DNA of 14,293 bases from Nitrosomonas eutropha (GTDB taxonomy: Bacteria; Pseudomonadota; Gammaproteobacteria; Burkholderiales; Nitrosomonadaceae). The translations under genes were made by a program, and so were the position numbers. This document shows positions 1 through 14,195 of this stretch, piece by piece (the first letter of the stretch is position 1; every line of letters starts with the position of its first letter). Location of the stretch: contig JACTML010000189.1 of NCBI GenBank assembly GCA_014584635.1, forward strand, positions 1-14,293, read 5' to 3'. The notes under the pieces are model-generated. The model was not told where the DNA came from and searched no databases. It was given only the letters and a program-made list of their open reading frames with translations.

Positions 1-52
1 GCGTGTGTACGGTAATACCGTACCGCGGGTTCGAATCCCGCCTTCTCCGCCA
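1..52 (+). tRNA. tRNA-Ser, 3' part (5' end outside the window)
   Basis: The visible part folds as the 3' portion of a tRNA with a long variable arm. A 7-bp variable-arm stem (7-13 with 17-23) has a 3-nt loop. It is followed by a 5-bp T stem (25-29 with 37-41) enclosing the 7-nt loop TTCGAAT, the 3' acceptor strand CTTCTCC (42-48), discriminator G at 49 and encoded CCA at 50-52. A long variable arm with a G discriminator points to serine, because the other long-arm types, Leu and Tyr, usually carry A. The anticodon lies before the window, so the isoacceptor cannot be read. The gene is the integration target: its last 20 bases are part of the attL core. Confidence 0.88.
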
Positions 53-53
53 C
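33..53 (+). repeat. attL: 21-bp att core at the tRNA-Ser 3' end
   Basis: A 21-bp segment beginning GAATCCCG and ending TCCGCCAC is repeated exactly at 8256-8276 in the same orientation. The identity stops at both edges (C32 versus T8255, T54 versus A8277). The core covers the T loop, T stem 3' half, acceptor strand and CCA of the tRNA, so the tRNA is restored after integration. This is typical of P4-family integrases that target tRNA 3' ends. Confidence 0.9.
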
Positions 54-220: not shown

Positions 221-1420
221 ATGAAACTCACTGATTCAGCCATTCGAGCAGCAAAACCAAAAGAGAAAAAATACAAGCTAGCAGACGGCAACGGCCTAAC
301 CCTGCTGATACACCCTGACGGTTCAAGGCACTGGCGTTATCGTTATTCGTTCAATGGAAAAGAATCAATGCTTTCCCTTGGGAAGTACCCGGAAGTAACC
401 TTAGCGCAAGCTCGGGGCGTTCATGCCGAGTACAGAGCGCGGCTAAAACAGGGAATCAATCCAGCTAATCACCGAAAGGAAGAAAAGCGTAAAGCGAGCA
501 TAGCCGCTGAAAACAGCTTTGAAGCCGTGGCGCGTGCGTGGTGGGAACAATGGAGGCACGGCAAGACTGAGCGCCATGCTGATTATGTATTGCGAAGAAT
601 GGAAGCTGACGTTTTTCCAATCATTGGAGAGCGACCAATCAATGAGCTGAAAGCTATGAGTTTTATTGATCTTGCCAAACGGATTCAGGAACGTGGTGCG
701 CTGGATATTGCGGGGCGTGCCTTGACCACATGCGGGCAGATTATGCGTTACGCAGTACAGAATGAACTGGCAGAACGAAACCCGGTAGCGGACATTAAGC
801 CAGCCGACATTCTAAAGCAACGGGAGAAGGTTAATCACAGGCGAATCCCTGAATCAGAACTGCCCGAGTTGCTCTTGAAGATTGAGCAGTACGACGGGCA
901 GCCACTTACCCGGTTAGCGCTGCAATTAATGACGCTAACATTCGTTCGAACAAGCGAGTTAATTGACGCGCGCTGGGAAGAGATTGAGTTTGACCGCGCC
1001 TTGTGGCGAATCCCGCCAGGGCGAATGAAAATGCGCTGTGAGCATATCGTTCCTTTGAGCAGGCAGGCAATGGTTATTCTGCAAGAGATCAAGGCGCTGA
1101 ACGTTGATCCCGTGTTGGTGTTTCCCAGCGAACTGCACAATGGAAAGCCCATGAGCAACAATACTATTCTTTACGCGCTGTACCGCATGGGGTATCACGG
1201 CCGTATGACAGGGCACGGCTTCCGTGGGCTGGCGTCAACCATACTGCACGAGAAAGGATTTAATCATGAGCATATAGAACTACAGCTGGCACACTCGGAA
1301 CGCAATGAAGTATCAGCTGCCTACAATCACGCCATGTACCTTGAGCAGCGAAGGGAAATGATGCAGTGGTGGAGTGACTATATCGACATGAGAAGACCAG
1401 CTGCGGCTAACCCTGCATAG
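221..1420 (+). CDS. int: P4-type site-specific tyrosine recombinase (integrase)
   Basis: This 399-residue protein catalyses integration and excision of the element at the tRNA-Ser att site. Residues 1-85 match the N-terminal arm-DNA-binding domain of P4-like integrases (DUF4102 type: KLTDSAIRAAKPKEK... ADGNGLTLLI). Residues about 95-190 form the SAM-like core-binding domain and about 205-375 the catalytic domain. The full catalytic set is visible: R243 (FVRTSEL), K270, H332 and R335 (HGFR), H358 (LAHSE) and the nucleophile Y368 (AAYNHA). Length is normal for the family and nothing is truncated. The ATG at 221 follows directly after the arm-site cluster; the Shine-Dalgarno is weak, but the N-terminus aligns with the family. 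The gene reads away from the tRNA, the usual layout for elements in tRNA 3' ends. Confidence 0.95.
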   Translation: MKLTDSAIRAAKPKEKKYKLADGNGLTLLIHPDGSRHWRYRYSFNGKESMLSLGKYPEVTLAQARGVHAEYRARLKQGINPANHRKEEKRKASIAAENSFEAVARAWWEQWRHGKTERHADYVLRRMEADVFPIIGERPINELKAMSFIDLAKRIQERGALDIAGRALTTCGQIMRYAVQNELAERNPVADIKPADILKQREKVNHRRIPESELPELLLKIEQYDGQPLTRLALQLMTLTFVRTSELIDARWEEIEFDRALWRIPPGRMKMRCEHIVPLSRQAMVILQEIKALNVDPVLVFPSELHNGKPMSNNTILYALYRMGYHGRMTGHGFRGLASTILHEKGFNHEHIELQLAHSERNEVSAAYNHAMYLEQRREMMQWWSDYIDMRRPAAANPA

Positions 1421-2271: not shown

Positions 2272-3108
2272 ATGGATAACCTCATATTCACCGACACACT
2301 ACAAGAGGCATTCCTGACTGCTGGACTGGACAATCCCGGGCTGGATAGGCGCGGTACCGGCGCGGTATTCGGTGATTGGCGTACTGGTGAAAAGTATGTC
2401 TGGCAGCGCAAGCGCGAGGGTGGGCCAAAGGTCAAAGTAGATGTATACGCCATAGAGAACGCCAGAAAGGAGGCAAACAAAAAGCTGGAGCAGAATATAC
2501 AGAAGGCGCATGCTGCGGCAGCCGGAAAAGCCCGCGCGCTGTGGAACAACTATTCCGGGGAAGCTGACGCCAATCATCCTTATCTGGTGAGGAAGAGACT
2601 GCCACCGCTGGGATTGCGCCAGTTTAAAGACAATCTTCTGGTTCCTGTTTATAGCGCAAATGGAGAGACAGTTAATCTCCAAACAATCACGCCGGAAGGA
2701 AAAAAGCGGTTCAGCAAGGGCGGGGAGGTAAAGGGCTGCTTTGGTTATATCAGCGGCTCAAATGAACTGCTTTATGTCTGCGAGGGTTGGGCAACGGGCG
2801 CTGCGCTTCATATGCTCACAAGGGCGAGCGTTGCTTGCGCCATGAGTGCGGGGAACCTTTTATCAGTCACTGGGGCAGTGAAAGCGGCTATGCCCGGGGG
2901 AATAAAGATTGTTGTTGCTGGTGATGATGACCGCTTCAGCAATATTAATCCGGGGCGGGATGCGGCCAACAACGCCGCACTTGTTCATGGGTTGGAAGTT
3001 GCATTTCCGACATTCGCGCCGGATAGTAAAGGTACTGACTTTGCCGATATGTGGCTGGAGCTTCAAGGAGACAGACAGGCGGGGAGCGAAAAAAAAAGGG
3101 GGGTGTGA
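2272..3108 (+). CDS. Toprim-domain primase-like protein
   Basis: This 278-residue protein is likely the primase-like part of the element's replication machinery. The central part (about 88-160: ARALWNNY... ANHPYLVRKRLPPLG... LLVPVYSANGETVNLQTITPEGKKRF) matches the linker found in P4-alpha/TraC-type primases. The Toprim core follows: E171 in YVCEGWATG, then IVVAGDDD (acidic 218-220), GRDAANNAA and a closing KGTDFADMW motif. The N-terminal zinc-binding domain of full primases is missing, as in many satellite versions. GGGGTGA precedes the ATG. The next gene is in the same frame, after only the stop and one codon, so the two could once have been one polypeptide. The end contains an A9G6 tract (3069-3083). 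Confidence 0.82.
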   Translation: MDNLIFTDTLQEAFLTAGLDNPGLDRRGTGAVFGDWRTGEKYVWQRKREGGPKVKVDVYAIENARKEANKKLEQNIQKAHAAAAGKARALWNNYSGEADANHPYLVRKRLPPLGLRQFKDNLLVPVYSANGETVNLQTITPEGKKRFSKGGEVKGCFGYISGSNELLYVCEGWATGAALHMLTRASVACAMSAGNLLSVTGAVKAAMPGGIKIVVAGDDDRFSNINPGRDAANNAALVHGLEVAFPTFAPDSKGTDFADMWLELQGDRQAGSEKKRGV

Positions 3109-3111
3109 CAA

Positions 3112-4995
3112 ATGAGCGCCAATGATATGAATACCCCGAATGCCAATGAATTAACCTCCTCCCCGGCTGCCGGACAGGCAAGGATAAGCGGCACCATTAA
3201 ATCAAATAAGCCTGACAGCCCAAACGTAATCCCGCTGGACAGGCTTCCACCACCAACGCCCTTCCCTCTTGAGGATATGCCGGATAACTTCCGCGCAGTA
3301 GTGGGTGAGATTACGGATCGCGTCAAGGTAGGATCCCCACTGGCAGCCCTAACCGTGCTGGCGGCAATGGCTCACGTTGCGCAGACTCGTGTTAATGCCA
3401 CGCGACTTGACGGCGGCACTATGCCAACAAGCTTGTACCTTCTGACTCTGGGAGATTCTGGATCAAGGAAGACCAGCGTTTTTGATCTGGTTTTTGAGCC
3501 GGTGCGTGAAGCCGAAAGGGATTTATCAATCAAGTATATGCGGGAATTTGAAAGCCTTGAAAAAGAAGAGGCTGGTATTACGCATAAGAAGGGAAAGGAG
3601 GAGTTCAGGAAGCAGAATCCGCTACCAGAAGATCCGCGCTCACTAATCAGCAGTGATGCGAGTATATCCCGCGTTGCTGGTGACTATGCCGCCGGGAAGG
3701 TGGCATATACATGGTTGACTGATGAAGGCGGCGCTTTCTTTGGTTCTCACAATTTCACCAACAATGAAACCAGTTCAGCCTCCCGCGCCATATTGCTCAA
3801 GCTGTTTGATAATGGCAGCGGAGAAAGGCTACGGGCCAAATCAAACCTTGATGGTTCCGGCTCTTTTTACAATCGCCGCTTAACGGCTTTTATCATGGCA
3901 CAGCAGATAGCTGTGCAGGAATATCTTAATGACCCGGTAGCACAAGGTCAGGGCTTCCTTCCCCGCTTTATCTTTGGTGCATCGAATACGCCATATGAAG
4001 ACAGGATTGTTTCACTTGAGGAATGGAACAAGAACAGGCGGAAGGCTCGCGCGTCATCAGTAATAGCTTCATTCCATGAGCGGCTAAAGGATCTAAATAG
4101 CGCGCCACAGCTTATCAAGGATAACGACCCAATCAGCGGCATTGACCCGCAAAAGAACGTGTTCGACTGGTCAGCCGGGGCTAATGAGGTATTTTTTCAC
4201 TGGAACAATGAGGTGAATCAAAAGCAGTGCCAGGGCGGGGAATATGTTCACCTAACGGCGTTTGCTTCCCGATCGGCAGAACTTGCGGTACGGACGGCAA
4301 CCGTACTGGCCTACTTCTATAATCACAAGCAGGTAGAGAGGGAGGACGCGCACGCCGCAGTGGCTTTGGTCAGATACTCGCTGGCTGAATGGTCGCGATT
4401 CCTGTTTGCCTCCAGTGACAGGATCACGGTTGATGCTATCAATTGTATTGACTGGATCCGGGCCAAGGTCAGTAAAGGGGATAAACACTGGTTAAGGTTC
4501 ACCAACAAAAAATGGTCGCAATTCGGCCCCAATAAATACCGAAGCGCAAAGATACGTGATGCAGTGCTTGGGAAACTGGTTGAGCATAAATATCTTTACT
4601 TTGGCGGTAGTGAATACATATATGCCAGCGGTGATGATGATGTAAATGGTGCACCCCTTGCTAATCCTGCTAATTCCGCTAACGATTCCCCGCAAACCCA
4701 GGCCCAGCAAGGCTTAGCACCGGAAAGTGAAAGTTGCTACCAGTTGCTAACGGTTGCTAATCCGACCGTTAGCGAGTTGGGCGAGCGGCAAAGAGAACCG
4801 GCAATTAGCAATAAATTAGCAACCGTTAGCAAATCGTTAGCAACCCAAAACCCGCATGAACAGGAGGCTTTAGCGGAATTAGCGGAATTAGCAACTCCCT
4901 CACATGAATATATCAATCTAGATAGTGATTCGCTGACCGACTCCATCGACCCGGTGACCGGGAAGAGAATGCCTAAAGAGCAGGAGGAGATATGA
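3112..4995 (+). CDS. DUF3987 (YfjI-like) helicase-like replication protein
   Basis: This 627-residue protein is of the DUF3987 family that accompanies Toprim primases in satellites and cryptic prophages. Residues about 50-130 hold the family start (PFPLEDMPDNFRAVVGEI, then SPLAALTVLAAMAHVAQ) and a P-loop-like motif GDSGSRKT at 114-121, with R where the classical Walker A has G; I recall this variant as common in the family. A Walker-B-like WLTDEGG lies at 201-207. Residues about 330-510 form the C-terminal helical part, followed by a winged-helix-like segment (KWSQFGPNKYRSAKIRDAVLGKLVEHKYL). From about 515 the tail is low-complexity and carries the GCTAA/TTAGC array in its DNA. It is likely an ATPase that opens or unwinds the origin; activity is inferred. 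Its ribosome-binding site is the AGGGGGG at the end of the upstream gene. Its stop overlaps the next start (ATGA). Confidence 0.82.
   Translation: MSANDMNTPNANELTSSPAAGQARISGTIKSNKPDSPNVIPLDRLPPPTPFPLEDMPDNFRAVVGEITDRVKVGSPLAALTVLAAMAHVAQTRVNATRLDGGTMPTSLYLLTLGDSGSRKTSVFDLVFEPVREAERDLSIKYMREFESLEKEEAGITHKKGKEEFRKQNPLPEDPRSLISSDASISRVAGDYAAGKVAYTWLTDEGGAFFGSHNFTNNETSSASRAILLKLFDNGSGERLRAKSNLDGSGSFYNRRLTAFIMAQQIAVQEYLNDPVAQGQGFLPRFIFGASNTPYEDRIVSLEEWNKNRRKARASSVIASFHERLKDLNSAPQLIKDNDPISGIDPQKNVFDWSAGANEVFFHWNNEVNQKQCQGGEYVHLTAFASRSAELAVRTATVLAYFYNHKQVEREDAHAAVALVRYSLAEWSRFLFASSDRITVDAINCIDWIRAKVSKGDKHWLRFTNKKWSQFGPNKYRSAKIRDAVLGKLVEHKYLYFGGSEYIYASGDDDVNGAPLANPANSANDSPQTQAQQGLAPESESCYQLLTVANPTVSELGERQREPAISNKLATVSKSLATQNPHEQEALAELAELATPSHEYINLDSDSLTDSIDPVTGKRMPKEQEEI
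4660..4892. repeat. Iteron-like GCTAA/TTAGC array, candidate replication origin
   Basis: Fourteen copies of the pentamer lie in 233 bp. GCTAA occurs at 4660, 4669, 4678, 4746 and 4756. TTAGC, its complement, occurs at 4714, 4769, 4805, 4816, 4826, 4837, 4870, 4879 and 4888. Many are extended to TTGCTAA(C) or GTTAGCAA. By chance fewer than one would be expected in this length. The left third is mostly GCTAA and the rest TTAGC, giving a roughly two-armed layout. Copies fall in three codon registers (for example GCT-AAT, TTA-GCA, GTT-AGC), so the repetition acts on DNA rather than on one protein repeat. Position inside the replication gene fits an origin bound by its own product; this is inferred. 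Confidence 0.6.
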
Positions 4996-6158
4996 CCAAA
5001 CTGGGGCGAGTGATTCGACTGGAAGATATAGCCCGGCCGAGGGGGGCCAACACAAGCCCGGCTAGCGAGAAGGTTAACGGGGCTGGGGTGATAGCGCATT
5101 GGGATCCGGACAGCATTGTCATGTTCATAAGGGAGTTCGATGAACCCGTTGTCTTGAGCGAAGACAGTGCGCCAAAAGAAGTGGTTGATTTCGCCCTATC
5201 TGTTGGTGTGCTGCTCACCACTGACGGACACACAATAAAGCCGTTTAGTGACAACCCTTTGCCAGCTGATCTTGTTGGCGCAATCAGGAATAACAGGCCG
5301 CTGATTATTAAGGAGATTCAAGCAAGGGAAGACCGCTGGCGCTATGAACTTACTCATTATCTCGGAGTGACAAGCGCCTATCTGGCGAACAAGGGGGTGC
5401 TGTTTTGGCGTGATGCTCAAAGACTGTGGGCTACATGCCCACGGGAGACAGGCGACGCACTCAAGGCCAATCATCCTGAAGCATTCGCCAAAGTCAGCAA
5501 ACACCTGCCCGAACCAGTAACCCCGGGCACATGCGTTTACTACCAGCCCGATCCAGTCAATCCGGAGGCTGGCGGCGGCAAGTGCAAATGCAACGGGCTG
5601 AACGGCCCTGACAAGTACACCTACCCCATGAAGAAGATACAGTGTTCCGTATATAAGCCAGCAGCGGCTTCAATGGCGGTGACCCCAATGGCAGCAACGG
5701 CTTCCATGCCGCCTTCAATGCCGCCCGCTACCGGGCAAAGTGAACCACCTTCCATAGAGGGAGAGGACGGCCAGCAAGAAGACAGCGCGAAAGTAACAGA
5801 AGGCAGCGTGAAGGAGGCAGAAGAGCGCGCAAGCCAGCTGGTTGATACAATCCTTTCTTATGGCGTACGAATATCGACTGATGGGGAGAGGGTTATCCCG
5901 ATCGACGGGGTGGAGTTCGGCGAGAAGTTAGCCGGGCTTATCGACCTCATGCAACCTGACATGGCTTTGGTTCTGTCCAGACGGCAAGCGGCATGGCTTG
6001 ATTCGCTATCCGCCCTTATTAGTGAACCATGGAACAATCACCTTGAGCCTGACGACGTCATGACCGTATGGCATACACCAGTTGAAGTAATTGCCGCCAC
6101 CATTAAAGGAGCGCCAGTTAATCGGCAACCAGCAGGAGCAATACCCCATGCGTTATAA
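4992..6158 (+). CDS. Unknown protein with duplicated TubC-like docking domain and Cys cluster
   Basis: This 388-residue protein has no firm family. Two copies of a ~50-residue unit are visible. Residues 62-116 (VVDFALSVGVLLTTDGHTIKPF... PADLVGAIRNNRPLIIKEI) and 281-340 (LVDTILSYGVRISTDGERVIPI... EKLAGLIDLMQPDMALVL) share the pattern hydrophobic helix, G-V-x-hydrophobic-x-T-D-G, strand, helix. This resembles the TubC N-terminal docking fold. Between them lie cysteines C149, C181, C198, C200 and C218, a possible metal site, then a Met/Pro/Ala-rich linker (224-256). A strong AGGAGGAG precedes the ATG, which overlaps the DUF3987 stop by 4 bp. Context suggests a partner of the replication proteins or an adaptor; not demonstrated. 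Confidence 0.7.
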   Translation: MTKLGRVIRLEDIARPRGANTSPASEKVNGAGVIAHWDPDSIVMFIREFDEPVVLSEDSAPKEVVDFALSVGVLLTTDGHTIKPFSDNPLPADLVGAIRNNRPLIIKEIQAREDRWRYELTHYLGVTSAYLANKGVLFWRDAQRLWATCPRETGDALKANHPEAFAKVSKHLPEPVTPGTCVYYQPDPVNPEAGGGKCKCNGLNGPDKYTYPMKKIQCSVYKPAAASMAVTPMAATASMPPSMPPATGQSEPPSIEGEDGQQEDSAKVTEGSVKEAEERASQLVDTILSYGVRISTDGERVIPIDGVEFGEKLAGLIDLMQPDMALVLSRRQAAWLDSLSALISEPWNNHLEPDDVMTVWHTPVEVIAATIKGAPVNRQPAGAIPHAL

Positions 6159-8255: not shown

Positions 8256-8276
8256 GAATCCCGCCTTCTCCGCCAC
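8256..8276 (+). repeat. attR: 21-bp copy of the att core
   Basis: This is an exact copy of 33-53 in direct orientation. It contains the tRNA T-loop-to-CCA segment without the rest of a tRNA, so it marks the far end of the insertion. Confidence 0.9.
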
Positions 8277-8567: not shown

Positions 8568-8870
8568 ATGCCCTCAATGAACATCTACTATGAGCTGAAC
8601 GGCGATTTGTTCGTTTGGGACACAGGCAAGGCAGAAAAAAACCTGCGTAAACATGGTATTCGTTTCGAGGAAGCAGCTACAATTTTTTCCGACCCATTGT
8701 TTGTGTTGACGGATGCTTCCCGTAACGATGAAGCACGCGATGCCGCTATTGGTTTTGATGTGACCGGCCGCTTGCTCTATGTGGTTCATATTGAGATTGA
8801 AGGATCTTGTATCCGTCTTATTTCCGCGCGCCGCGCCGAACCAGAAGAGGAACTCAACTATGCTCTCTGA
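8568..8870 (+). CDS. brnT: BrnT-family toxin (RelE-like ribonuclease)
   Basis: This 100-residue protein matches the BrnT family, toxins of type II systems that act as RelE-like ribonucleases on mRNA and slow growth. The signature is clear: FVWDTGKAEKNLRKHGIRFEEAATIFSDP (15-43), then DEARDAAIGFDVTGRLLYVVH (54-74) and the family end IRLISARRAEPEEELNY (82-98). An ATG three codons later (8577) could also be the start. The gene follows a perfect palindrome and overlaps brnA by 11 bp, the usual toxin-first order of this family. It lies outside the element, 290 bp beyond attR. Confidence 0.88.
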   Translation: MPSMNIYYELNGDLFVWDTGKAEKNLRKHGIRFEEAATIFSDPLFVLTDASRNDEARDAAIGFDVTGRLLYVVHIEIEGSCIRLISARRAEPEEELNYAL

Positions 8871-9147
8871 ACGCTTGAAGAAACGCCTGCAGAAGAATCG
8901 CCCCATGACATCGATCACTCTGCGCATCCCGGTCGATGTGGTGGAATCTTTAAAGGAAATTGCCCCGCATAAAGGTTTTTCCGGATACCAGACATTGCTG
9001 AAATCATACATCAGCGAAGGATTACGCAGAGATGAAGAACGATATTCCGGTCTATCCACAGCGCGGCTGATCGAAGCGCTGAAAAAATGTGGTGTATCCG
9101 ATGCGATAATCGAAGAAGCGACACGAGATCTGGCAGATTCCCAATGA
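8860..9147 (+). CDS. BrnA-like CopG/ribbon-helix-helix antitoxin
   Basis: The start at 8860 gives 95 residues. It has AGAGG at 8846-8850 and overlaps the brnT stop by 11 bp; an upstream in-frame ATG at 8779 would lie deep in brnT and is rejected. The N-terminal part holds a ribbon-helix-helix pattern (MTSITLRIPVDVVESLKEIAPHKGFSGYQTLLKSYISEGLRR, about 16-57). The C-terminal part (60-95) would bind and block the toxin. The product is expected to repress its own operon through the 8540-8556 palindrome. It is of the short GYQTLL type rather than the longer classic BrnA, so no symbol is given. Confidence 0.78.
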   Translation: MLSERLKKRLQKNRPMTSITLRIPVDVVESLKEIAPHKGFSGYQTLLKSYISEGLRRDEERYSGLSTARLIEALKKCGVSDAIIEEATRDLADSQ

Positions 9148-9176: not shown

Positions 9177-10250
9177 TCAGATACGTACAGCCTGTCTGAC
9201 TGTGCCCGTCAACCTGGAGAGAATACGTCCGGCCATGTCTCTTAGCGAAACGATTTCATCTACAGCTCCGATCGCGATTGCTTCGCGGGGCATGCCAAAC
9301 ACCACGCTGCTGTCTTCATCCTGCGCCAGATTGTAGGCGCCGGCCTGATGCATGGCGAGCATACCCGCTGCGCCATCCTTACCCATACCGGTCAGAATCA
9401 CGCCAACAGCATTTTTTCCCGCATATTGGGCAGCAGATTGAAACAGTACATCGACCGAGGGACGATGACGATTGACCGGATCTGCCTGGCTCAACTCAGT
9501 CATATAATTCGCACCATTTTTCTTCAGCTGCAAATGGGAATGCCCCGGAGCGATATAGGCATGACCAGGCAATACTCGCTCCCCTCCTTCGGATTCCTTC
9601 ACTTCAATTTTGCATAACCGATTGAGTCGCTCGGCAAAAGAACGAGTAAATCCCGGAGGCATATGCTGGGCAATCAGGATTCCCGGACAATCCGGAGGCA
9701 GATGAACCAGTACATCTTTAATGGCCTCGGTACCGCCGGTGGATGCACCAATAATGATCAATTTTTCGGTTGATATGCCATGATGCTCTGAAATCTGAGG
9801 CGTTCTGCCATTCGTAGCATTTGCACTGCCTGGCTCCAGACGACGTACACGCGCTACACTGGCAACCCGTATTTTTCGTGCGATTTCCTCACCATAGGCT
9901 TCAAGACCATGACGAATATCCATCTTAGGTTTGGCCACAAAATCAACCGCACCCAGCTCAAGTGCGCGGAAAGTTACCTCTGAACCCCGTTCTGTCAAAG
10001 TAGACACCATCACCACCGGCATGGGCCGCAATCGCATCAGTTTTTCCAGAAAATCCAACCCATCCATTCTGGGCATTTCCACATCCAGTGTCAGCACGTC
10101 CGGATTCAAGGTCCGGATCATTTCACGCGCTACCAGCGGATCCGGTGCCGCTCCAATCACTTCCATATCAGCCTGGCTATTAATAATTTCGGTCAGTAAT
10201 TTGCGAATCAAAGCGGAATCATCAATAACCAGTACACTGATTTTTTTCAT
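9177..10250 (-). CDS. cheB: Chemotaxis protein-glutamate methylesterase/deamidase CheB
   Basis: CheB removes methyl groups from (and deamidates) chemoreceptor glutamates, resetting receptor sensitivity. The 357-residue protein has a receiver domain (1-125) with D10, D11, phospho-acceptor D56 ([12 protein letters not shown]), T84 and K107. A linker of about 125-160 follows, then the catalytic domain with S170 (GASTGG), H196 (AQHMPPGFT) and D292 ([12 protein letters not shown]), the Ser-His-Asp triad. Length is standard. GAGGA precedes the ATG with good spacing. It is the last gene of the leftward mcp-cheR-cheD-cheB block, 17 bp after cheD. Phosphorylation by CheA, encoded elsewhere, is expected to activate it. 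Confidence 0.97.
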
Positions 10251-10267
10251 AAATTAATCCTCAATAT

Positions 10268-10921
10268 TCAGGAAGATTTCATCTGCTCTTCCGATTGCGC
10301 TGTCGATAACAGTAACCGGCTGTAATTTTGTTCACGCTCAGCAATGGTATCGTTACGCGATACATACAGTTTCTTCAGTAATACCCGGCCGCTTTTTGGA
10401 AAAAAATGCAGCTTGCGTGGATAAAATCCTTCCAGATCCCCGGCCAGAACAGGAATACCACACTCATTCAGATATTTTTTTACAAATCTGGCATTTTGCG
10501 AACCAATCATCGAAGTAACCATAGCCGGCTGTACATTGCCGCCTCCAAATACCTTGGCAACCAGATTTTGTTTACGCGCACCATTTTTGAGTAACTCACG
10601 TATCAGAATATCCATCGCATAGCCACCAAAACGCGCACATTCCGCCGGGAATCCGCTATCATTTTCACCGCTTGGCAGCATAAAGTGATTCATGCCGCCT
10701 ATCTTGCTATGCTGATCGTAAATGCAGGCGGAAACACAGGAGCCAAGCACTGTACTCAACACCATATCCCTGGTAGTCACAAAATATTCCCCGGGCAGTA
10801 ACTTGACCGCATCAATATTCAAACGCTGATCAAAATAAAAAGTTGAAGCAAACTGAGGATCAATCATGGCAGGATAAAATCGTCTGACAGTTTGACGAAT
10901 CTGTTTCCAGTAGAAGGACAC
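10268..10921 (-). CDS. cheD: Chemoreceptor glutamine deamidase CheD
   Basis: CheD deamidates receptor glutamines to glutamates so that they become methylation sites. The 217-residue protein contains the catalytic Cys-His pair C62 ([12 protein letters not shown]) and H79 ([10 protein letters not shown]), spaced as in the family, plus KVFGGGNV (123-130) and the closing [15 protein letters not shown] (166-180). The frame opens with GTG at 10921. No good ribosome-binding site is seen there, and an internal ATG giving MIDPQFAS is a possible shorter start, so the N-terminus is uncertain. The C-terminal tail beyond the core (about 185-217) is longer than in minimal homologs. The gene lies between cheR and cheB. 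Confidence 0.95.
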
Positions 10922-10975
10922 ACATAGTATTTATCCTGTTGTTATCGGAACGCCTCTAAACTCCAGAAGCTCCCA

Positions 10976-11824
10976 TTATTTGGCAATCGGTTTGTAGACA
11001 GTTCTGTCAATAAGCCTGATCAGATCAGAAGCATGCTGAAACACCTCCGAATGGCCCATGAACAGCAATCCATCATGACTCAACAAGGGCACAAACTTCT
11101 GCAAAATCTGGTATTGCGTTGGTTTGTCAAAATAAATCATAACGTTACGGCAGAAAATTGCGTTGAATGGTCCGCGCATGGGCCATCTGGTATCCAGTAA
11201 ATTAAACTGGCGAAAAGTGATCAGATCACGCAGCTCCTGCCTGACCCGGGCATAACCGGAAGTATTATTCTTCCCTTTGAGAAAGAAACGCCTGATTCTT
11301 TCAGATGGCATAGATTCCAGTCTGTCCAGTGCGTAAACGCCTTCACGCGCAACCGCCAGTACATCGGTATCAATATCAGTCGCAAGAATACGAACAGGCG
11401 GCTTCAGGGAGTCAAAAGTTTCCACCATCGTCATGGCCATTGAATAGGCCTCTTCCCCAGTAGAAGAAGCACTGCACCAGAGTTTTATAATCTGTCCGGG
11501 TTGTCGCTTTTTTGCATGCTCAGCCAATATCGGAAAATGATGCGCTTCCCGAAAAAAGGCAGTGAGGTTGGTGGTCAATGCATTAGTAAAAGATTCCCAT
11601 TCCGTATCCTCATCGTCCCTTTCCAGCCGCTCCAGATACTCGCCAAAGCCTTTTGAGTCGGTTGCACGTAAACGCCGCGACAACCGGGTATAAACCATTT
11701 CCTGCCGATTCTCAGCCAGCGCGATACCGGCTCGCGCGTAAATCATTCTTTTCACACATTCGAAATCACGCGCGGAAAATGCATATTCACGAGAACTCTG
11801 CTCACTGGAAAGAAGTGCATTCAT
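10976..11824 (-). CDS. cheR: Chemotaxis protein methyltransferase CheR
   Basis: CheR transfers methyl groups from S-adenosylmethionine to receptor glutamates. The 282-residue protein has the N-terminal helical domain (about 15-75) and the class-specific TNLTAFFRE (85-93). The SAM-binding region includes WCSASSTGEEAYS (116-128), ATDIDTDVL (148-156) and FCRNVMIYF (224-232), with GHSE (257-260) near the end. All hallmark motifs are present and length is typical. The start ATG at 11824 follows 28 bp after the mcp stop; no strong ribosome-binding site is seen, so translation may depend on coupling. The mcp in front ends in a candidate tether for this enzyme. Confidence 0.97.
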   Translation of the reverse strand: MNALLSSEQSSREYAFSARDFECVKRMIYARAGIALAENRQEMVYTRLSRRLRATDSKGFGEYLERLERDDEDTEWESFTNALTTNLTAFFREAHHFPILAEHAKKRQPGQIIKLWCSASSTGEEAYSMAMTMVETFDSLKPPVRILATDIDTDVLAVAREGVYALDRLESMPSERIRRFFLKGKNNTSGYARVRQELRDLITFRQFNLLDTRWPMRGPFNAIFCRNVMIYFDKPTQYQILQKFVPLLSHDGLLFMGHSEVFQHASDLIRLIDRTVYKPIAK

Positions 11825-11852
11825 AGCAAAAAATCGTTAAGTAAACCGGTTC

Positions 11853-14195
11853 TTAAAATTCTTCCCATTCTCCGTCTGTACCAGTGGGCACGGACGCAAC
11901 ATAACTCTTGGCAGGTACTTTCTTCTGATCTTTCGCCTGGGATTTTTTGGCCTGTGGCAACCGCTCAACGTTGGTTGCACGATTAGGGCCGCGCCGTTCA
12001 ACAAATGCCTGGTTATCTGTTGCAGCCAGAGGGTTTTGTTCCAGCCTGAATACCGCCACTGCGCGTGATAATTGTTCCGCCTGCTCACGCATTGACTCGG
12101 AAGCAGCTGCTGCCTGTTCCACCAGCGCGGCATTCTGCTGGGTAATTTCATCCATCTGCGAAATCGCCTGATTCACCTGTTCGATCCCCTGGCTTTGCTC
12201 CTGGGAAGCCGCCGAAATTTCGCTCATGATGTCCGTCACACGCTTGACTGACTGCACCACTTCACCCATGGTTTTACCCGCCTGATCCACCAGCTGGGTG
12301 CCATCTTCCACTTTTAGTACCGAATCATTGATCAGTTCCTTGATCTCTTTCGCTGCCGCCGCTGAACGCTGTGCCAGTGTCCGTACCTCGGTTGCCACCA
12401 CTGCAAATCCACGCCCCTGTTCACCCGCGCGCGCTGCTTCCACCGCTGCATTCAGCGCCAGGATATTGGTCTGGAAAGCAATGCCATCAATCACGCTGAT
12501 AATGTCCACAATTTTCTTGGAGCTGTCGTTGATCGCACTCATGGTCTGTACCACTTCACCCACAACCTGACCGCCTTTTACAGCGACACCGGAAGCGGAA
12601 GCAGCCAGTTGATTCGCCTGGCGCGCATTATTCGCGTTTTGTTTGACGGTTGAGGTCAGCTCCTCCATGCTGGATGCAGTTTTTTCCAGATTAGCCGCTT
12701 GCTGTTCAGTACGCTGCGAAAGATCGGTATTACCGTCAGCAATCTCTTTGGAAGCAGTACTAATCATGCTGACTGCCTCCTTGATTTGCGCCACGATACC
12801 GGTCAACTGCGCGACCGTTGAATTGGAATCATCCTTTAATCGCCCCAGCATCCCCTGGTAATCGCGGGTAATCTTCTGCGTTAAATCACCTCCTGCCATA
12901 GCTTCCAGGATAGTGGCCAATTCATCCAGTCCCTGGGAAATACTTTCCATCAGCCGATTAATACCTTCAGCCAGTTGTTTGAAAAACCCTTCCTTGCCAA
13001 CCAGAGTAAGGCGTTTGCTGAAATCCCCGGCCACACCTGCCCGCACAATATCCATGATCTCTTTTTCGACGGTCAGCTCCTGGGTACAATCGCGCCACTC
13101 AACCACAGAGCCGGCACGCTCTCCGGATTCATTGGAAACAGGCATCAATATCAGTGAATAGGTTCGCTCCCCAATCTTGATGTTGTCGATCTGCTGCTGC
13201 CCGGTCAGATCACGCAAATGATTTTGCAGCGATTGCCGTATTTCCTGTTCAACAGTCTTATCCAGCAGAATTTCCCGCACCATCCGGTTCATGAAAATAA
13301 TCGTGCCACCGGTATCGGCAATCATGACAGCAGAGGTAGCAATATCCAGCGCATTGCGCACACGCAAATTTTCCATATTCATACGTTTGGTTTCAGTAAA
13401 ATCGATTCCCGCACGAATCTGCATGGACTTAAGCGCCTCAGTTAACTTTCCGATTTCATCATTACGTTTAATTGTGATCTGGGTGGTGTAGTCTCCTTGT
13501 GCCATCTTATCCAGATGATGAATCATGGTACGCAGCGGCTGATGGATACACGAGTACAACAACACACCCATTCCACCTGCCAGACAGGCGCTCACCCCCA
13601 TTCCGGCAAAGGCCAGGCTGAACTGATCCTGCATCATCAACCAGGCCGATCCCGCCATCACCAGTAATGGCACGGTACAGACCCCGATAATCCGGGTTTT
13701 CAGGCTGAGATGGCGAATTTTTTCGCGCAGCAGTCCCAGCCAGTTATCTGCAATCACATCTCCGGCAACAATCCGTACTTTTGCCGTGCCTTCCCGCATC
13801 TGGCGATACAACGTTTCGGCTGCCTGAATCTGATCGCGTGAAGGTTTACTGCGTACGGACATATGCCCGGTTACCTTGCCGTGCTCCCTGACAGGCGTCG
13901 CGTTAGCATAAACCCAGTAACTGCTGCCATCCTTACTCCGGTTCTTGACCATGCCACTCCATGGCCTGTCCTGTTTAAGCATGTTCCAAAAATCAGTGAA
14001 TGCTTCCGGTGGCATATCAGGATGACGAATAATATTGTGTGCCTGCCCGATCAGTTCCTGTTCGGTAAAACCGCTCATCCTGACGAATGGTTCATTGATA
14101 TAGGTAATCACTCCTTTCGCTGTGGTTTTGGAAACAAGAAACTCTCCATCCCGCATCTCATGTTCCACATTGGTTACCGGTAGATTGACTCTCAT
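11853..14195 (-). CDS. Aer-like PAS chemoreceptor with C-terminal EWEEF tether
   Basis: This 780-residue methyl-accepting protein probably senses redox or energy state. Residues 15-120 form an Aer-type PAS domain; NIIRHPDM (54-61) carries R57, H58 and D60 at the same numbers as FAD-binding residues of E. coli Aer, followed by PWSGMVKNR. Two membrane spans (about 168-188 and 192-214) form a hairpin, then a HAMP domain (215-268), a second PAS-like domain (about 280-375), further HAMP-like helices (380-470) and the signalling domain (480-710). The hairpin tip IAFQTNILALNAAVEAARAG is at 572-591. A linker ends in EWEEF (776-780), the xWxxF type that tethers CheR/CheB, absent from E. coli Aer as I recall it. 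GAGGAA precedes the ATG. Confidence 0.92.
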   Translation of the reverse strand: MRVNLPVTNVEHEMRDGEFLVSKTTAKGVITYINEPFVRMSGFTEQELIGQAHNIIRHPDMPPEAFTDFWNMLKQDRPWSGMVKNRSKDGSSYWVYANATPVREHGKVTGHMSVRSKPSRDQIQAAETLYRQMREGTAKVRIVAGDVIADNWLGLLREKIRHLSLKTRIIGVCTVPLLVMAGSAWLMMQDQFSLAFAGMGVSACLAGGMGVLLYSCIHQPLRTMIHHLDKMAQGDYTTQITIKRNDEIGKLTEALKSMQIRAGIDFTETKRMNMENLRVRNALDIATSAVMIADTGGTIIFMNRMVREILLDKTVEQEIRQSLQNHLRDLTGQQQIDNIKIGERTYSLILMPVSNESGERAGSVVEWRDCTQELTVEKEIMDIVRAGVAGDFSKRLTLVGKEGFFKQLAEGINRLMESISQGLDELATILEAMAGGDLTQKITRDYQGMLGRLKDDSNSTVAQLTGIVAQIKEAVSMISTASKEIADGNTDLSQRTEQQAANLEKTASSMEELTSTVKQNANNARQANQLAASASGVAVKGGQVVGEVVQTMSAINDSSKKIVDIISVIDGIAFQTNILALNAAVEAARAGEQGRGFAVVATEVRTLAQRSAAAAKEIKELINDSVLKVEDGTQLVDQAGKTMGEVVQSVKRVTDIMSEISAASQEQSQGIEQVNQAISQMDEITQQNAALVEQAAAASESMREQAEQLSRAVAVFRLEQNPLAATDNQAFVERRGPNRATNVERLPQAKKSQAKDQKKVPAKSYVASVPTGTDGEWEEF

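Follow-up and report, generated by a model that had tools for sequence, protein, structure and literature searches.

The 3' tail of a DUF3987 gene in Nitrosomonas eutropha is crowded with copies of the pentamer GCTAA and its complement TTAGC, and the question raised by this locus is what such an array does inside a coding sequence. The analysis was performed on the whole stretch of 14,293 bp that holds the gene (hereafter, the window) and on relatives of the DUF3987 protein. As set out below, the array is very probably the replication origin, in its initiator-binding part, of an 8.2-kb integrative element, and the element's own DUF3987 helicase is its likely binder. A search of the open-access literature returned no published origin for a DUF3987 protein.

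The element of about 8.2 kb is bounded by two exact copies of a 21-bp direct repeat, at a tRNA-like 3' end (Table 1). ARAGORN found no complete tRNA in the window, because the window presumably starts inside the tRNA. In addition to the integrase, the Toprim protein and the DUF3987 protein, the element holds several ORFs to which Pfam and PHROGs gave no named function. Assignment of the central protein to DUF3987 (PF13148) was clear, with 164 bits against a curated Pfam cut-off of 27. Searches of Pfam, PHROGs and NCBIfam gave no family match for the 88-aa ORF at 1871-2137, AlpA included, nor for the ORF at 4992-6158.

Table 1. Positions of the features of the window referred to in the text, with the basis of each assignment.
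Feature	Position	Strand	Basis
attL-like 21-bp direct repeat, 3' end of tRNA-like sequence	33-53	+	Exact second copy; tRNA by reading only
Tyrosine integrase	221-1420	+	Pfam Phage_integrase, Phage_int_M, Arm-DNA-bind_3
Toprim primase-like protein	2272-3108	+	Pfam Toprim_3; PHROG DNA primase
DUF3987 protein, proposed initiator helicase	3112-4995	+	Pfam DUF3987, 6e-48; PHROG 2373 DNA helicase
Predicted MCM-like AAA+ domain, aa 57-435	3280-4416	+	
Predicted C-terminal winged helix, aa 433-507	4408-4632	+	
Codons K466 to Q470; columns 466/470 vary with core bases 6/4	4507-4521	+	Unguided scan; tree test for 470
Dyad iteron array, 14 exact GCTAA/TTAGC	4660-4892		
Outer left triplet, spacing 9-9 (4660, 4669, 4678)	4660-4682	+	
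Inner left sites, degenerate (GCTAC 4736, GCTAA 4746, GCTAA 4756), spacing 10-10	4736-4760	+	
Inner right quartet, spacing 11-10-11 (4805, 4816, 4826, 4837)	4805-4841	-	
Outer right triplet, spacing 9-9 (4870, 4879, 4888), 33 bp past last quartet site	4870-4892	-	
attR-like copy of 21-bp repeat	8256-8276	+	Exact match to 33-53

The window contains 30 copies of GCTAA/TTAGC, 14 of which lie in 233 bp (the first starts at 4660 and the last ends at 4892), within the last 112 codons of the DUF3987 gene and past its folded part. When all pentamers were counted with complements merged, GCTAA reached the highest number per 233-bp stretch (14), followed by TAGCA (10), which overlaps it, and then by pentamers with 9. 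When the amino acids of the tail were recoded with codons sampled from elsewhere in the gene, the mean was 1.9 pentamers and the maximum 8 in 20,000 draws, by which chance was rejected as the cause of the array. Permuting the tail's own synonymous codons yielded 6.7 on average and never more than 12, versus 14 observed. Since both procedures produced fewer pentamers, codon choice, and not the amino acids alone, makes them. The original prediction had held that the number of copies is far above chance and that they occur in several codon registers on both strands; the resampling bears out the former, GCTAA proved to be the densest pentamer cluster over the window, and all three registers are used (10 sites in register 0, three in register 1 and one in register 2).

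That prediction had missed the geometry of the array, which is a dyad. From the arrays of relatives we wrote two templates of exact spacing. Type A, to which the window and its nearest clade belong, has 14 places, arranged as a triplet spaced 9-9, a step of 33, a quartet spaced 11-10-11 and then the mirror image; type B has eight, with four cores spaced 6-9-9 and mirrored as 9-9-6. Type A was matched at 14 of 14 places in L142 (core TGCGG) and L144 (core TGCGA), at 12 in L178 and at 10 in the window, where the right half-array is exact for the relatives' template and the left half keeps the outer triplet but is degenerate in its inner part. The TTAGC copies at 4714 and 4769 are off the template, and the central gap of the window's array measures 57 bp, versus 13-34 bp in the other five best type-A loci. 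All eight places of type B were matched in 18 loci. In Acinetobacter loci a third arrangement, seen by eye only, has inner quartets flanked by outer pairs.

Of 155 non-redundant loci, the window included, 55 have a match of at least six sites to either template close to the DUF3987 stop (24 type A, 32 type B, one locus having both). Elsewhere in these loci, matches of the same quality occurred in two loci in 738 kb, and one of them, L079, belongs to a DUF3987 gene split into two frames. The array is therefore not universal in the DUF3987 family, as 100 of the 155 loci had no template match of at least six sites; its geometry and position are conserved in part of the family. The type A template scored in 31 of 156 loci versus none of 312 shuffles, and the type B template scored above 4 of 8 in 47 of 156 loci versus none of 312 shuffles (6 of 312 scored at all); both templates were made after viewing arrays, and their source loci and the window are counted among the matches. 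When the spacings were jittered by 1-3 bp (12 trials each), the matches among the 156 loci fell from 25 to 0-12 for type A and from 32 to 0-2 for type B. L156, which has no open frame, was left out, and L185, a duplicate of L182, is still present in the 156-locus and 53-array counts and absent from the 155-locus counts. A template-free scan found one 5-mer clustered on both strands, above 95% of dinucleotide shuffles, in 81 of 156 DUF3987 loci, and in 65 of these 81 the centre of the cluster falls from 300 bp before to 200 bp after the DUF3987 stop; the scan counts palindromic words (CTTAAG, CTGCAG) twice, which inflates the scores of L139, L141 and L149. A single-protein scan of genome contigs for relatives gave 12 pattern matches and no relatives, and tblastn in phages gave no match.

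The array is a DNA-level site, independent of the reading frame. Among 53 arrays of at least six sites, placed relative to ORFs of 60 codons or more, 11 (one a duplicate) lie in the DUF3987 tail, 10 run across the stop, 21 lie in the next ORF and 11 in no ORF; in these counts the frame of L144 stays open up to the end of its contig, and the genes that precede the arrays of L076 and L079 have broken or split frames. Among distant relatives most of the tail residues differ, and an array of the same spacing with another core holds the same place. Under one geometry the tail reads LANPANSAN in the window, AESADFAES in L142, TATTATTAT in L182 and AEVAEVAE in L178. A tail kept while its pentamers were lost would have spoken against the original prediction; the relatives show the opposite, a changing tail and a persisting array. 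In the closest homologue, P0002 (70% identity, available as protein only), the tail residues touching a pentamer are identical at 27 of 29 positions versus 36 of 49 for the others (Fisher p 0.040). Judged from that protein, 13 of the 14 pentamers are still codable, and the sole loss is the off-template copy at 4769.

These placements bear on two readings that would keep the site out of DNA recognition. If Leu-Ala and Ala-Asn triplets were selected as protein and the pentamers were a by-product, one would expect what is seen in 10 of the 14 sites, which share register 0, and in the outer triplets, which encode ANPANSAN and LAELAELA; but the synonymous codons are far from random, the inner sites are spaced 10 or 11 bp apart, the tail is predicted to be disordered, and in relatives the array sits in another ORF or in none. 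We rejected this reading, which now has a negligible probability, on the existence of arrays outside the DUF3987 frame. The same arrays, together with the synonymous resampling, agree with the earlier statement that protein repetition alone does not explain the pentamers. The arms of the array are also mutual inverted repeats and might be thought to form an RNA hairpin or terminator. As core pairing is imposed by the template, the pairing of the spacers alone is informative, and between mirrored cores the spacers pair no more often than expected by chance (91 of 246 positions in type A, 27 of 100 in type B). This favours protein sites over a hairpin; furthermore, changes in the core accompany a residue of the DNA-binding domain. 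A hairpin was rejected on the spacer pairing and is hardly credible. With the array taken as a DNA site, the low-complexity tails (LANPANSAN, AEVAEVAE, TATTATTAT) are explained as its translated shadow. The original prediction had also supposed that the tail may have been recruited to host the origin: relatives with the array outside the gene fit recruitment of the tail as host of the array, and the origin part of that statement carries the same "very probably" as the origin itself. As a separate observation, in L006, L013, L019 and L032 a small ORF at the DUF3987 stop translates the whole array (MTLAALIRKRES...VATAIPAIAAT... in L013), and in L013, L019 and L032 it overlaps that stop by ATGA.

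Structure prediction assigns DUF3987 the fold of an MCM-like AAA+ helicase, with a winged helix on its C-terminal side. By sequence, comparison with solved MCM chains gave two matches up to E 1, neither of them significant, to the unrelated Hot protein (0.037) and to MCM3 (0.095). In the model, pLDDT is below 50 for most residues from position 501 onwards. An earlier study predicts DUF3987 to be a helicase and predicts that the winged helices of fused primase-helicases recognise origins (PMC5862659).

In order to relate the cores to the protein, we ran an unguided scan of array cores against the columns of an alignment that spans the last 520 residues and has 453 well-filled columns. The best predictor of core base 4 was residue 470, in the winged helix: Arg or Lys at 470 goes with G at base 4 and other residues go with other bases, in agreement in 63 of 65 loci, the rule being broken by L221 and L085. 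Examples of a core and its residue are TGCTAA with Gln in the window, TGCGGA with Lys in L178, TGCGAC with Arg in L147 and TGCAGA with Thr in L149. On a tree built without that segment (a quick tree with several long branches, the window's included), base 4 and residue 470 each change 13 times, and of nine independent pairs on supported branches an average of 8.4 changed in the same direction (median p 0.008). This pairs test, made for base 4 and residue 470, is the one that allows for relatedness, which the permutations of the scan ignore. With that same limit on its permutations, the scan placed residue 466 at the top for core base 6, with Arg or Lys in 14 of 18 loci having C at base 6 versus one of 35 without it; the window breaks this rule, having K466 with A. 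Both residues belong to helix 2 of the winged helix, whereas recognition usually falls to helix 3. Linked changes between core and winged helix point to DUF3987 itself as the binder, and the joint change of residue 470 and core base 4 gives indirect support to the view that the repeats are bound by the initiator.

The residue-base set comprised 53 loci, obtained from 64 with a picked array by dropping 14 by hand, adding six by eye and removing three with broken frames. The 14 dropped loci were weak or not readable as a TGC-type core, and in eight others the core was reset by eye. Among the dropped loci, L016, L036, L105, L109, L146 and the duplicate L185 agree with the base-4 rule and L183 probably does; L062, L093 and L184 do not fit it, and L021, L115, L126 and L157 have no comparable core. 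L062 and L093 have their cores in reversed orientation and differ at residue 470; the site may be read there in the flipped direction. Among 12 held-out loci whose core is of the GC type, the rule fitted 11. These 12 are included in the 65 and are relatives of training loci, not independent draws; they came from 58 loci, 15 of them above the array threshold, after removal of L208 and L241 (other cores) and L246 (broken frame), and the consensus of L204 is weak.

We infer that the winged helix of the element's own DUF3987 would bind the short cores on both strands, that the inverted half-arrays would most likely seat two helicase rings head to head, much as MCM rings are loaded face to face on chromosomes, that these rings would open the DNA between or beside them, and that the Toprim protein, encoded just upstream, would then make primers. 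Multiple short repeats at the initiator gene, one mark of an iteron-type origin, are present here with DUF3987 as the putative initiator. In the window the array is translated as part of the gene, into a tail predicted to be disordered, because it is sited at the 3' end of the helicase gene. A cis-acting origin carried within its own initiator gene, as originally predicted, gains support from relatives with arrays of the same spacing and other cores.

A site recognised by DUF3987 could serve other ends. As a regulatory operator, through which DUF3987 or another protein of the element controls downstream genes or its own operon, it would be well placed, since the operon is compact and the array frequently coincides with the beginning of the following ORF (21 of 53), and linked changes tell who binds, not why. 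However, the 8-14 sites of the array form a large dyad where a helicase gene ends, away from its promoter, the protein most strongly linked to the cores is that helicase, and precedents at this location are origins in the available text of PMC7581432; we regard an operator as improbable. Less probable still is a partition, packaging or replication-control (handcuffing) site that DUF3987 binds apart from the start of replication. The geometry suits any multi-protein complex, and the array centre has no consistent A+T-rich opening element (compared with its surroundings, the centre alone was richer in A+T in 18 of 31 arrays, poorer in 12 and equal in one), but no partition family was named for the eight (Pfam) or nine (PHROG) proteins scanned, which are part of the element's ORFs, and binding by a helicase favours a role in initiation. 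An initiator-binding origin thus stays the preferred reading.

The SV40 T antigen, whose sites are GAGGC, offers a likeness in that short pentamers are bound by a ring helicase. Lambda O is not known to be a helicase and belongs to another family, and the Rep protein of SaPI presumably also belongs to a family other than DUF3987. The SCCmec protein Cch2, like DUF3987, is a mobile-element helicase with short repeats at the 3' side of its gene: its C-terminal domain binds 5-nt iterons (AAGTG) directly downstream of the gene, at a putative origin, and it has a primase-polymerase partner in its operon (PMC7581432); its relative Cch is called MCM-like in the title of another paper. Cch2 has three intergenic repeats, whereas DUF3987 elements have 8-14 cores, mirrored, fixed in spacing and differing between elements, and the window's array lies inside the coding sequence of a protein that Pfam places in DUF3987. 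SaPI Rep is an island helicase whose C-terminal domain recognises iterons just downstream of its gene, apparently as two hexamers (PMC7581432); in the window the array is inside the reading frame, and the available text gives no residue-base relation for SaPI Rep.

In lambdoid phages the initiator-binding iterons lie inside gene O, mid-gene and beside an A+T-rich region (PMC7466680). The window likewise has its iterons in the coding sequence of the proposed initiator (4660-4892 within 3112-4995), but in the 3' tail, and Pfam finds DUF3987 only, not an O-type initiator. In PLE, a Vibrio satellite, the DNA-binding domain of RepA and the origin vary together between elements, and the phage nuclease Odn attacks the PLE origin and copies RepA specificity; unlike the DUF3987 arrays, that system has a RepA_N initiator and, in noncoding DNA, three semi-palindromic repeats, each about 30 bp long (PMC8263062). 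PICMI satellites are small integrative elements, searches for which use integrase, AlpA, Fis and a primase gene (models DUF3987 and DUF5906), and removal of the primase gene leaves fewer circular or concatemeric copies (PMC10803314). The available text mentions no origin array for PICMI (PMC10803314). Integration beside fis and phage-dependent transfer also characterise PICMI. The window's 88-aa ORF has no AlpA match in Pfam, PHROGs or NCBIfam, and the window's element ends at a tRNA-like 3' end. On the archaeal plasmid pRN1, a replication gene with a C-terminal winged helix is immediately followed by an essential origin region; in the available account that region is a stem-loop without iterons, unlike the DUF3987 arrays (PMC4234260).

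It is an evenly balanced question whether DUF3987 helicases share an origin code, by which a mirrored array of base-exact spacing would load two MCM-like rings, all 8-14 cores would switch with residues 470 and 466 so that each element has a private origin, and the array would enter and leave coding sequence without loss. We conjecture that incompatibility, or phage nucleases that target satellite origins, may drive core switching; different elements in one cell would gain from private origins. The locus offers a concrete and testable candidate origin for a widespread family of mobile-element helicases whose name is still that of a domain of unknown function. It also suggests that MCM-like initiators able to find their own origins exist in bacteria. 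As fixed geometry goes together with switching cores tied to single residues, the way in which an initiator and a dozen sites change specificity jointly becomes testable.

Several other records of the family deserve mention. The circular 19-kb Pseudomonas putida record L140 has TGTCGCC repeats just 3' of its YfjI-type (DUF3987) gene, and its gene table, self-declared incomplete, names no further replication initiator. The Psychrobacter plasmids L139 and L141, which also carry repM, show about 11 distinct CTTAA-type sites at most 150 bp downstream of DUF3987 (17 if both halves of CTTAAG are counted), so that two initiator systems may coexist on a single replicon. Strong downstream clusters of unrelated words, fitted to neither template, were detected in L077 (GTGTTA, +153), L078 (CACCTA, +151), L135 (CAAAAG, +62) and L104 (GCTTCC, +47), in a scan from which 30 of 138 loci were dropped as duplicates or for an ORF running off the locus; these are possibly further origin types. 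In L028, whose DUF3987 gene is broken, TGCGAA occurs 13 times at positions 2437-2625 of the oriented locus, ahead of the point where its longest ORF ends.

With regard to the rest of the window, the 151-aa ORF at 7074-7529 matches PHROG 9747, of unknown function (1.2e-12). Just beyond the right repeat, the ORFs at 8568-8870 and 8779-9147 may form a toxin-antitoxin pair, the 100-aa member of which had no NCBIfam match, and the 122-aa member a weak BrnA match below the NCBIfam cut-off. The chemotaxis-like genes at 9177-14195, recognised by reading of the ORFs only, lie beyond the 8.2-kb element and look chromosomal.
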